Assembly (NCBI RefSeq): GCF_002742635.1
Contig: NZ_PEGF01000001.1
Location: forward strand, 1 to 64,000
Origin: Caulobacter sp. X
Lineage (GTDB): Bacteria > Pseudomonadota > Alphaproteobacteria > Caulobacterales > Caulobacteraceae
Direction: 5' to 3'
Length of the DNA: 64,000 nt
The notes below the pieces were generated by a model. The model was not told where the DNA came from. It saw only the letters and a list, made by a program, of their open reading frames with translations, and did no database searches. Position numbers and translations under genes: made by a program. Below, piece after piece: positions 992-34,004 of this stretch. Each line of letters opens with the position of its first letter. Positions within the stretch are counted from its first letter, which is position 1.

Positions 992-1018
992 ATACGCGTC
1001 AGGGCGGCGCGCCCCCTG
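992..1018 (-). promoter_or_regulatory. Candidate CnrH-type ECF promoter for the cnrY-like gene
   Basis: On the minus strand the sequence reads CAGGGGG, 14 bases, then GCGTAT, about 32 bases before the ATG at 959. The same arrangement, with the same spacer length, precedes the second cnrY-like gene (16627-16653). It is one of ten related elements in the island. Confidence 0.7.
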
Positions 1019-1072
1019 CGACGCTTGCGCGATCTTCAGAAGCTCGGGTCGAGACCCTTGCCGGGTGGACGG

Positions 1073-1318
1073 CTAACGGCGGTTCGGGAGCGGTGTCGGC
1101 GAGGATGTCGGCGCGCCCGCGCCCTGGGGCGGCGTCAACCGTCCGACGACCTTGAAGGTAACGCTGGCGGCGACGGGCTGGGCTTCGCCAGGAATCTTGG
1201 CGGTGAACTTCAGCGCCCAGGTTCCGTCGGTCGGCAGGTCCGCGCGGAAGGTGTAGACCCCGTAGTCCAGGCTGGGGGCGAAGAAGGCGGGCAAGGCCCC
1301 ATCCGCCTGCTGGAGGGG
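1073..1318 (-). pseudogene. YtkA/FixH-like protein, 5' end missing
   Basis: About 80 C-terminal codons remain, containing a beta-sandwich pattern (SLDYGVYTFRADLP...WALKFTAKIPG) typical of YtkA/FixH-like domains found in copper loci. The reading frame is open to 1318, where the sequence becomes the inverted copy of the sensor operon, so the signal peptide and first strands are absent. The switch occurs in shared bases (about 1305-1318) that also occur at the end of the neighbouring anti-sigma gene. A TTG at 1294 could start translation but would give an incomplete domain. In the undisturbed genome this gene probably lies upstream of cnrY. Confidence 0.6.
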
Positions 1319-1876
1319 CGTTAGTGGGCATGGTCCGCAGCACGGCCCTGACCTTGTGCCTGTCGCTGGTCGTGGCCTTGCTGGGCGTGTGGACCGGCGC
1401 GCAGCTGATCACCCTGGGCGCGCGTCCACCGGCGCTTCATGAGCTGGTTCATCACGGACTGCGTCTCAGCGCCGCTCAGAAGCAGCGCATCGCCGACATC
1501 GAAAGCGATCACGAAACCCGCCGACTGAAGCTCGAAGCGGAGATGCGCACGGCCAATATCGAGCTGGCCCAGGCCATCCAGGAGACGCACGCCTATACCC
1601 CCAAGGTACAGCGGGCGATCGACCGGGTGCATGAGGCCATGGGGGCGCTGCAGAAGGAAACCATCGTCCACACGGTGGGCATGCGCCGGGAGCTGACACC
1701 CCAGCAAGCCGCCCGGTTCGATCAGGCCGTCGTGCGATCCCTGACCGAAGATGCGCGCTGACCGTGGACAGCCAAGCGTCCGACAACGCACTCGCCGAAC
1801 GGGCGGCGGCTGGCGACGATCAGGCCTTCGCCGTCCTGGTGCGCCGCCACAAGGAGCGGCTCTATCGTCTGCTGCG
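1305..1876 (+). repeat. Right arm of a 572-bp inverted repeat
   Basis: Reverse complement of 117-688. This arm continues without a break into the complete sigma gene and the nuclease-like gene, so it is probably the original locus. Its left edge joins the YtkA-like fragment. Confidence 0.9.
1324..1761 (+). CDS. CnrX-like periplasmic metal sensor
   Basis: This 145-residue sensor has an N-terminal anchor helix and a four-helix periplasmic domain. CnrX binds metal through two histidines, one glutamate, a histidine and a methionine. Here the same spacing occurs: H39 and H43 (LHELVHH), E60 seventeen residues later, then H116 and M120 (VHTVGM) 56 residues after that. The start is GTG at 1324 or ATG at 1330. 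The sigma gene begins two bases after the stop. Its natural upstream partner, the anti-sigma-like gene, is found only on the other side of the inverted repeat. Copper is the likely signal from context, although nickel or cobalt cannot be excluded. Confidence 0.85.
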   Translation: MGMVRSTALTLCLSLVVALLGVWTGAQLITLGARPPALHELVHHGLRLSAAQKQRIADIESDHETRRLKLEAEMRTANIELAQAIQETHAYTPKVQRAIDRVHEAMGALQKETIVHTVGMRRELTPQQAARFDQAVVRSLTEDAR

Positions 1877-2345
1877 CCGTTACACCGACGACGCCGATGA
1901 GGCTTATGAGGCGGTGCATGAGGCCTTCATCGCCGCCTGGGGCGCGCTGAAGCGCTACGATCCCGACCGCTCGTTCGGCGCCTGGCTGCGCACCATCGCC
2001 ATCAACAAGGCTCGCGACCGCAGACGGCGCATGATGGTGCGCAGGCTGGTGTTCGGCGCGCGCGGCCTGGACGACGCAGAGGCGCTGGCGACCCCCGATC
2101 CGGCCGCCAGCGCCGAAACCGGCGTGCTGCAGGACGAGGCGGCCGCGCGCCTGGGCCGCGCCATCGCCAGGCTGCCCTCGGCGCTGAAGGCGGCGCTGCT
2201 GCTGACGGCCTTCGAAGGCATGAGCCAGCAGGAGGCCGCCGACGTCCTGAAGGTCTCGGTCAAGACGATCGAGACCCGAGTCTATCGGGCGCGCAAGCTG
2301 CTAGGCAAGGATCTGGCCCTCGACCGGTCGGCGCCGATCAGGTGA
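1764..2345 (+). CDS. CnrH-like ECF RNA polymerase sigma factor
   Basis: This 193-residue ECF sigma factor has region 2 at about residues 10-80 (AFAVLVRRHKERLYRLLRR, then the FGAWLRTIAINKARD segment) and region 4 at about 125-180, ending in the helix-turn-helix QQEAADVLKVSVKTIETRVY. The start is GTG. It closely resembles the sigma at 17411-17983. It is predicted to be held at the membrane by the 96-residue CnrY-like protein and released when the sensor binds metal. Likely targets are the GAGGG/GCGTAT elements found across the island. Its end overlaps the 3' end of the convergent nuclease-like gene by 8 bases. Confidence 0.88.
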   Translation: MDSQASDNALAERAAAGDDQAFAVLVRRHKERLYRLLRRYTDDADEAYEAVHEAFIAAWGALKRYDPDRSFGAWLRTIAINKARDRRRRMMVRRLVFGARGLDDAEALATPDPAASAETGVLQDEAAARLGRAIARLPSALKAALLLTAFEGMSQQEAADVLKVSVKTIETRVYRARKLLGKDLALDRSAPIR

Positions 2346-32811: not shown

Positions 32812-32848
32812 GATCGTTCGCTCTCACCGCTATCAATACTGCGTGTCG

Positions 32849-32874
32849 ATACGCGCCGGTGGGCGGGACCCCTC
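32849..32874 (-). promoter_or_regulatory. Candidate ECF promoter of the second copper ATPase
   Basis: On the minus strand: GAGGG, 15 bases, GCGTAT, an exact match to the consensus, ending 37 bases before the GTG start. Confidence 0.75.
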
Positions 32875-32927
32875 ATGTGTAGCTGCAGAAAATGCTCGCG
32901 GCCGATCGCCGAAGGCGTGTCGTCGGA

Positions 32928-33605
32928 TCAGGCGGCGCGCAGGGTGGTGTCTGGTGGGCAGGCGTCCTCGTCCTGGTCGGGCCAGGCGGTGCGGCGCGCC
33001 AATCCTGGCGTCAGGAACAGGAGTGGCAGCTTGAAGGCCAAGAGTTCGCCATGGACGAAGCCATCGACCAGGTGCTCCCACCAGTTGGGCGGGCGACGAC
33101 CATGGTCGCGCAGCCATCCATCGTACGGCGCCCAATGGCTGGGCTCGTCCTGCTCGATCACCCGAAAGATCTTGGTCAGGGTGCTGTCGTCCCGCACCGC
33201 GGCGTTGCGCAGGAGGTCCTCGACCTGACGATGGCCCCGCTTTTCTGTCAGGGAAATGATCCGGCAGAGCCGTTCGAACAGGTCGTCGCGGCCGATCAGC
33301 TCGGGGGGCAGATCGTCAATCGGCGAGCCGAACATGATCTCGACGAAGCGATCGATGTGCCCGAAGGCGCGGTCCAGATCGAGCGGCATCACGCCTCGGC
33401 GTTCGAACCACCGGCGGAACATCAGATAGTGTTTGCGCTCGTCGGCGCGATGGCGCTCGACCAGCCCGATCAGCGCCTGGTCGTCAGGCCAGCTTGAACG
33501 GATCGCGGTGAGCATGCGGTCGATCGCCGTGTATCCGCGATGTTCATTGTAGAGGTAGATCGAGCAGAGGACGTCGAGAAAACGACGCCTGAAACGGTCG
33601 CCCAT
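32928..33605 (-). CDS. Ferritin-like domain protein
   Basis: This 225-residue soluble, mostly helical protein carries carboxylate and histidine residues in a ferritin-like pattern (NEHRGY, HRADERKHYLMF, then EQDEPSHWAPY). These would place a dimetal site in a four-helix bundle. Its role is unknown; storage, oxidation or stress protection are options. It lies between the copper ATPase, transcribed in the same direction 116 bases away, and a divergent TonB receptor. No ECF element is present upstream. Confidence 0.72.
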   Translation of the reverse strand: MGDRFRRRFLDVLCSIYLYNEHRGYTAIDRMLTAIRSSWPDDQALIGLVERHRADERKHYLMFRRWFERRGVMPLDLDRAFGHIDRFVEIMFGSPIDDLPPELIGRDDLFERLCRIISLTEKRGHRQVEDLLRNAAVRDDSTLTKIFRVIEQDEPSHWAPYDGWLRDHGRRPPNWWEHLVDGFVHGELLAFKLPLLFLTPGLARRTAWPDQDEDACPPDTTLRAA

Positions 33606-34004
33606 CGGGCCATCTCCCCAAGGTTCGGCGCGCTCTATCCCGACGGCGGCGGGCCTGAACCTTGGCTATAACGGTCCGGGCGCGACGCTGTTCCGAGCAC
33701 CGTCGGGGCAAGATCGTGGCTGCGCATCCTGATCACCGATACGAGGCGCGGGTGAGCCATGGGTCTGGTCGTCCGGGTTCGATCGCCATCCATCAGCGTC
33801 GCCGAAAAGGCGGCCGCGGCTTCCGCGGACCGCTGCCTGTTTGATCAGACATGGCCAGAAAAACGGAAATTTTAGGCGCCCGATCCTGCAAAAGCAGGGC
33901 GGCTTTTAGCGGGGAAACACGGTCTGAGGGGTGAGCTATCGCCACTGCGTACGCGATACAGGGGGCCGCAATTTGGCCCAAATCCAGATCGTGAGAACAG
34001 CATT
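33606..34004. other. 399-bp intergenic region
   Basis: The region separates the ferritin-like gene from the divergent TonB receptor gene. Apart from the ECF-type element at 33926-33952, no gene or clear structure was found. Short frames here look like chance. Confidence 0.6.
33926..33952 (+). promoter_or_regulatory. Candidate ECF promoter of the second TonB receptor operon
   Basis: The element reads GAGGG, 16 bases, GCGTAC, with the spacer one base longer than the commonest form and equal to those of the CnrY operons. It ends 52 bases before the TTG start at 34005. Confidence 0.5.

Follow-up and report, generated by a model that had tools for sequence, protein, structure and literature searches.

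The window analysed here, the first 64,000 nucleotides of contig NZ_PEGF01000001.1 of Caulobacter sp. X, carries an island of copper-resistance genes in which a two-box element, (G/C)AGGG-N15/16-(G/C)CGTA(T/C/A), recurs in the gaps between genes. The initial annotation had listed ten copies of this element and assigned them to one CnrH-like regulon of extracytoplasmic function (ECF) sigma factors. A pattern search of the window recovered all ten intergenic copies with the coordinates and strands proposed, and five of them, beginning at 3715, 4738, 24961, 30502 and 32849, have the exact form GAGGG-N15-GCGTA(T/C), again as anticipated. All ten very probably act as promoters for ECF sigma factors of the CnrH type.

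The copper island and its ten sites

Measured from the second box to the start codon, nine of the ten sites lie 30-69 nt from a gene, within the 30-70 bases that had been claimed. At the left end of the window, CAGGG-N16-GCGTAT (992-1018, minus strand; predicted transcription start ~984) stands before operon 1, 32 bases from the start codon at 959 of Y1 (669-959, minus), a small protein with one hydrophobic stretch and a putative anti-sigma factor. The CnrX-like sensor X1 (Metal_resist) is encoded at 1324-1761 (plus) and again, as an inverted copy, at 232-669 (minus); sigma 1, a CnrH-like ECF sigma factor of the N16 (s1) clade, follows at 1764-2345 (plus). This operon occupies a scrambled contig end. 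It contains an inverted repeat whose arms, more than 99% identical, lie at 117-708 (minus), where the repeat cuts that copy of sigma 1, and at 1286-1876; window positions 1-127 exactly repeat 3139-3265, and positions 1184-1310 match the final 127 bases of another contig, C2, in reverse complement. Since both overlaps equal 127 bases an assembly effect is suspected, and the arrangement of 1-3265 probably is one. In Caulobacter sp. RHG1, the closest named relative found (97% for sigma 2), a single intact operon occupies the place of operon 1, with CAGGG-N16-GCGTAT before its Y gene. As RHG1 has counterparts of all five sites found at the end of C2 and of those window sites that align on a single contig, and as the final 127 bases of C2 recur at window 1184-1310, the end of C2 very probably continues the island leftward. 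The claim that both cnrYXH-like operons are preceded by the element is right as to the sites, but operon 1 is not intact in the window.

Operon 2 keeps the order Y-X-H within the window. Its promoter site, GAGGG-N16-GCGTAT (16627-16653, plus; predicted start ~16661), ends 30 bases before Y2 (16684-16974), again small, with one hydrophobic stretch and putatively an anti-sigma factor; the CnrX/NccX-like sensor X2 (16974-17414) and sigma 2 (17411-17983), a CnrH-like ECF sigma whose clade goes with N15 promoters, follow on the same strand. Directly downstream, GAGGG-N15-GCGTAA (18004-18029, plus; predicted start ~18037; identical in RHG1) lies 69 bases before the start codon at 18099 of the multicopper oxidase PcoA/CopA (18099-19979; TIGR01480), a copper-resistance protein that shares its operon with PcoB/CopB (19976-21247). 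Further candidate targets on the plus strand are a TrxB-like flavoprotein (3807-4715; Pyr_redox_2, under the TRX_reduct cut-off), 66 bases from GAGGG-N15-GCGTAT at 3715-3740 (predicted start ~3748); a secreted-looking protein of 163 aa (4805-5296), whose frame was picked by an N-terminal signal-like stretch and not by a family match, 41 bases from GAGGG-N15-GCGTAC at 4738-4763 (~4771); a DUF305 protein (16014-16472), 40 bases from GAGGG-N15-CCGTAT at 15948-15973 (~15981); and a TonB-dependent receptor (34005-36971), 52 bases from GAGGG-N16-GCGTAC at 33926-33952 (~33960; N16 also in RHG1), probably in one operon with a DUF4198 protein (37006-37806). On the minus strand, GAGGG-N15-GCGTAT precedes CopC (24566-24925) and CopD (23634-24563) at 24961-24986 (35 bases; ~24953), and a P-type ATPase (30625-32811) that scores above the copper-type cut-off (TIGR01511) at 32849-32874 (37 bases; ~32841).

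The tenth site, GAGGG-N15-GCGTAT at 30502-30527 (minus; predicted start ~30494), has a long leader, with 415 nt to the start codon at 30086 of a TonB-dependent receptor (27300-30086, minus) that is its probable target. Site and leader blocks are conserved in RHG1 and in a further genome, G003. The leader (30086-30501, minus; about half a kilobase) keeps in both a palindrome-like TATGTATATACATA and a TTGAC stretch among other blocks, which are perhaps a second operator or promoter; a search of the window for RNA elements gave no Rfam match at the gathering threshold. The island also encodes CusF, a CueR-type MerR protein and a cus-like resistance-nodulation-division (RND) permease. No site was found by pattern search among the CueR/ATPase and cus-like genes (5801-15116), in agreement with the initial annotation, which had left the CueR-linked genes and the cusCBA-like operon out of the regulon. 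An eleventh match, a CAGGG variant at 39870-39895 (plus), falls within the open reading frame (ORF) 39025-41133 and is probably due to chance.

Probable promoters of the CnrH type and their spread with the sigma factor

The set of ten sites is real and far above chance. The pattern GAGGGN{15,16}SCGTAH, which covers all sites except the CAGGG form at 992, matches nine times in the window, whereas 100 dinucleotide shuffles gave 0.20 matches on average and never more than 2; less than one chance match per 64 kb had been predicted. Across the whole genome (4.81 Mb) there are 29 matches versus 6 for the reversed pattern. The initial 34 kb of the window contribute nine of the 29, and the final 12 kb of C2 another five, where 0.08 were expected in the 19,930 bases examined.

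The best match of sigma 2 in the PDB was CnrH (4cxf; 4.8e-33, the runner-up reaching 2e-16), whose group is ECF20. Sigma 2 has 190 aa, with regions 2 and 4 only and region 4 ending at position 183. X2 was closest in the PDB to NccX and CnrX, and Y1 and Y2 have their lone hydrophobic stretch at the expected place; the order Y-X-H is found in operon 2 and in the intact operon 1 of RHG1. The same element precedes the cnr genes of plasmid pMOL28, as GAGGG-N16-CCGTAT before cnrC and AAGGG-N16-CCGTAT before cnrY, with the last base 32 and 31 nt, respectively, before the ATG. Primer-extension starts given in PMC9045368 lie 25 nt (cnrC) and 24 nt (cnrY) upstream, and hence both cnr transcripts start 8 nt past the last T of the element. 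It follows that the recognition sequence, already visible in cnrYp and cnrCp, is not new.

The element travels with the sigma factor. Among 62 named loci with genes like sigma 2, a sample that includes several near-identical metagenome-assembled genome (MAG) sequences, at least one exact motif occurs in 33 of the 39 with closer sigmas (L056-L094), often as a divergent pair, and in none of the 23 with more distant ones (L095-L117); overall, 998,605 bases gave 68 matches versus 3 for the reversed control. A non-redundant set of 86 sigma loci, left from 128 rows once hits below 120 bits or 170 aa and near-duplicates were removed, has a site before the sigma operon itself in 57 cases within the searched stretch, and there the ORF in the Y position starts 13-52 nt past the site (search range 12-110 nt). 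In 74 other genomes of the genus, GAGGGN{15,16}GCGTAT averages 4.07 matches in the 42 with such a sigma (E <= 1e-30) versus 1.59 in the 32 without (p 1.9e-6), the reversed control giving 1.12 and 1.28, respectively. A spanning alignment with RHG1 was obtained for 15 of the 18 sites of this genome (not for 15948, 32849 and C2:963193), and over these identity reached 163/165 positions in the boxes versus 185/235 in the spacers and 1034/1266 in the flanks (p ~1e-10). This pattern is what two selected boxes would leave behind, the length of the spacer being kept but not its letters. Taken together, the match to mapped cnr promoters, the place before related operons, the conserved boxes around a variable spacer and the co-occurrence with the sigma gene underlie the reading as CnrH-type promoters.

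Spacer length and the sigma clades

Exact GAGGG sites near CnrH-like sigmas have predominantly N15 (127 distinct sites) or N16 (38), with five N14 and two N17, while the same scan near other ECF sigmas found one N13 and one N14. The operons' own sites comprise 42 with N15 and 15 with N16. Other sites up to 9 kb away share the spacer of the own-operon site in 65 of 70 cases over 47 loci, a set that omits this genome and RHG1 and in which related loci are not independent; none of 20,000 label shuffles equalled this value. Copper-associated targets (multicopper-oxidase, CopC, copper-binding, acyltransferase, P-type ATPase and DUF305 families) behave alike: their assigned sites have N16 in 21 of 22 cases at s1-clade loci and N15 in 35 of 38 at other CnrH-like loci. 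In this count Cupriavidus and the pair L141/L160 were set apart, this genome and RHG1 were dropped, and CCGTA and near-GAGGG variants were included; the figures concern assigned sites only, since tblastn gave no target for 89 of the 212 sites, partly owing to diverged small Y genes. Because one and the same target family has N15 or N16 according to the sigma clade, the classes are not a matter of target identity. Within the limits of such comparisons, spacer length tracks sigma clade and not target, an observation that is new here.

The genome holds both sigma types, and two partly insulated regulons are therefore predicted. Sigma 1 would use the N16 sites at 992 and 33926 and at C2 1958527 and 1969716, and sigma 2 the N15 sites at 3715, 4738, 15948, 18004, 24961, 30502 and 32849. 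The proposal of one CnrH-like regulon thus stands as regards the type of promoter, but the regulon is probably two spacer-coded, partly insulated sub-regulons; likewise, the window does contain two CnrH-like sigmas as claimed, but a member of a further sigma clade lies on C2 and the regulon extends beyond the window. That third clade appears to pair with N15...GCGTAA sites. A bolder proposition, for which we see even chances, is that paralogous CnrH-type sigmas in one cell share their boxes and are separated by a single spacer base, sigma 1 using N16 and sigma 2 N15, while a third sigma depends more on the final base of the element (N15...GCGTAA). Copper genes would then swap regulons when the G run of the first box slips by one base, of which the operon 2 promoter compared with RHG1 may be an example.

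Several further sites and sigma genes on C2 touch on these classes. The member of the third clade is encoded at C2:1741455-1741982 (L034), with a GAGGG site upstream at 1743586; together with L153, L155, L152 and L156 it is closer to CnrH itself, with N15...GCGTAA sites and X proteins that start DLHQEL. A major facilitator superfamily (MFS) transporter at C2:1728498 has a site of the N15...GCGTAA type. At C2:980557-981116 (L031, 15654-16213) lies a third sensor-sigma operon, with GAGGG-N15-GCGTAT at 979774 and a sigma 78-80% like sigma 2 but split across two frames. A divergent pair of sites, both kept in RHG1, occurs at C2:1958403-1958553 (L032, 8104-8254), with N15...GCGTAA toward small ORFs, one of which presumably resembles FliQ, and N16...GCGTAC toward a TonB receptor.

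Inducing metal, competing readings and known systems

Copper as the inducer is likely, judging from the target genes only. In all five annotated alphaproteobacterial plasmid regions examined (Asticcacaulis, Caulobacter FWC26, Sphingobium RAC03, Novosphingobium capsulatum and Sphingobium cloacae, chosen among 60 listed of 894 matches) Y-X-H lies amid copper genes; in three of the regions copC diverges from it and a multicopper oxidase and CopB follow directly downstream, and the element stands upstream of several of the copper genes. Three Cupriavidus regions examined have nickel-pump-type RND genes instead. At the related MAG loci L067, L069, L070, L074, L076, L079, L080, L082, L083, L089 and L090, X carries Asn where CnrX has its first His ligand; the divergent target in L069 and L070, the two of these examined, encodes an outer-membrane efflux protein, and such loci perhaps respond to another metal.

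Overall, we consider it highly likely that the ten sites match CnrH-type ECF promoters and that both Y-X-H operons use them to induce themselves and copper-resistance genes, the spacer probably sorting two sub-regulons. Excess metal, likely copper, would reach the periplasm, where the CnrX-like sensor X would bind it and loosen the membrane protein Y, the putative anti-sigma factor that holds the sigma. Once free, the sigma would bring RNA polymerase to GAGGG-N15/16-GCGTAT, with transcription starting about 8 nt downstream, and might thereby raise its own operon together with pcoAB, copCD, the P-type ATPase, DUF305, TonB receptors and the TrxB-like and secreted proteins. The sites themselves, their conservation, their agreement with the mapped cnr promoters and their association with sigma genes are seen in the sequence, and from these we infer binding by the sigmas, the metal, the role of Y and the insulation of the regulons.

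Some observations weigh against this reading. An own-operon site is missing from the searched stretch in 29 of the 86 sigma loci, two of the 15 site pairs aligned with RHG1 are uninformative on constraint because the sequence around them is 99% identical, and the target of the 30502 site, so far from its nearest gene, is unsure. Y1 and Y2 matched no family in a search with the CnrY/NccY model (NF033790), which gives pMOL28 CnrY 139 bits; no CnrY appeared among the PDB sequence matches of Y (in the NCBIfam and PDB searches the Y2 query had 9 extra residues upstream of the ATG), and profile comparison by hhalign returned a probability of 1.6 for Y as CnrY. These searches thus gave no sign of homology between Y and CnrY. 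As regards the spacer, five of the 47 loci are discordant, the s1-clade operon of Asticcacaulis has N15, and so does the cnrY promoter of Cupriavidus EM10. The length of the linker between sigma regions 2 and 4, considered as a cause of the classes, did not separate them.

Four other explanations deserve attention. That GC-rich sequence simply yields such matches could be argued from the several distant genome matches that sit within long ORFs and from the 6 hits of the reversed pattern against 29; none of the shuffles reached nine in the window, however, and the boxes are conserved relative to RHG1, so that chance is refuted for the site set and has a negligible probability, even though individual far sites may be chance matches. 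A direct element of two boxes could be the operator of another regulator, for instance a two-component response regulator, but we regard this as very improbable, given that the cnr starts were mapped 8 nt downstream of the same element, that the sites take an autoregulatory place before sigma operons and co-occur with the sigma, and that their distance to the 57 Y ORFs is fixed within 13-52 nt.

The division into sub-regulons and the choice of metal are more open to dispute. Both sigmas might read N15 and N16 alike within a single shared regulon, the spacer being merely inherited by lineage. The boxes are identical in both classes; the own-operon spacer needs only four changes on the sigma tree, and a tree-aware test has 2-3 independent pairs and low phylogenetic power, so descent could carry much of the association; and the operon 2 site has N16 here versus N15 in RHG1. 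This is a possibility that we keep tentatively, considering that target families change spacer with the sigma clade, that both classes occur in the genomes G025, G061 and G043, always close to the sigma expected to use them, and that spacer length was kept at 14 of the 15 promoters aligned with RHG1, all but that of operon 2, although 21% of spacer columns differ. The main inducer might instead be nickel, cobalt or zinc, with the copper genes as part of a general metal response. All five CnrX ligands (H42, H46, E63, H119 and M123 in the numbering that we assume) are kept in X1, X2 and 60 of 84 X proteins, including two Cupriavidus CnrX, a set that by itself would fit nickel/cobalt and so also counts against a copper sensor; an outer-membrane efflux protein is the divergent target in mine-drainage loci, and CnrH drives a nickel pump in Cupriavidus. 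Because both the window and the five plasmid regions have copper-type targets, however, this alternative seems unlikely.

If true, copper control by a CnrH-type sigma and its periplasmic sensor, placed ahead of pcoAB, copCD and copper ATPases, would be a widespread route in Caulobacterales and Sphingomonadales, on their chromosomes as well as their plasmids, and the explicit promoter would let these regulons be read directly from sequence. A spacer code would show in what way duplicated sigmas can recognise identical boxes and yet not interfere with each other. Since the sensor has nickel/cobalt ligands but lies among copper genes, it also becomes pressing to ask how CnrX-type sensors select their metal. 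No recognisable description of a CnrH-like copper regulon in Alphaproteobacteria was found in the open-access literature searched, which is not proof of absence; the initial statement that the regulon had not been described may therefore hold for the copper use and the alphaproteobacterial spread, but not for the recognition sequence.

The copper-linked ECF sigmas named in the sources consulted are CorE-like and CarQ-like ones, SigAb and Caulobacter SigF; CnrH represents nickel/cobalt there. CorE of Myxococcus xanthus is likewise a copper-linked ECF sigma that drives copper genes, but it senses copper by its own Cys-rich C-terminal extension, with no known anti-sigma, whereas sigma 2 stops just past region 4 and has no such extension. 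SigAb of Acinetobacter baumannii responds to copper and has anti-sigma factors, one of them modelled as embracing the sigma like CnrY; its direct regulon is small, however, with copA/copB and cusRS in the indirect one, and its anti-sigma genes lie downstream of the sigma. SigF of Caulobacter crescentus is a copper-induced ECF sigma in the same genus, but its boxes, GTAACC-N16-CGAA, precede other target genes and are not those of the ten sites, the only ones compared, which carry GAGGG or CAGGG and [GC]CGTA. The closest resemblance is to CnrYXH/NccYXH of Cupriavidus metallidurans pMOL28 and relatives, which share the order Y-X-H, the five-ligand CnrX-type sensor, a sigma that in the PDB is closest to CnrH, and the N16 element before cnrY and cnrC. 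They differ in that CnrH serves the CnrCBA pump whereas copper genes are served here, the cus-like RND genes of the window having no site; in that Y is not recognised here as CnrY; in GCGTAT here versus CCGTAT there; and in the many scattered targets and two or more sigmas per genome found here. The regulon would thus be a variant of the CnrH kind that is linked to copper, has several sigmas and carries a Y that the CnrY model does not recognise, its promoters being the part of this reading that is strongly supported.

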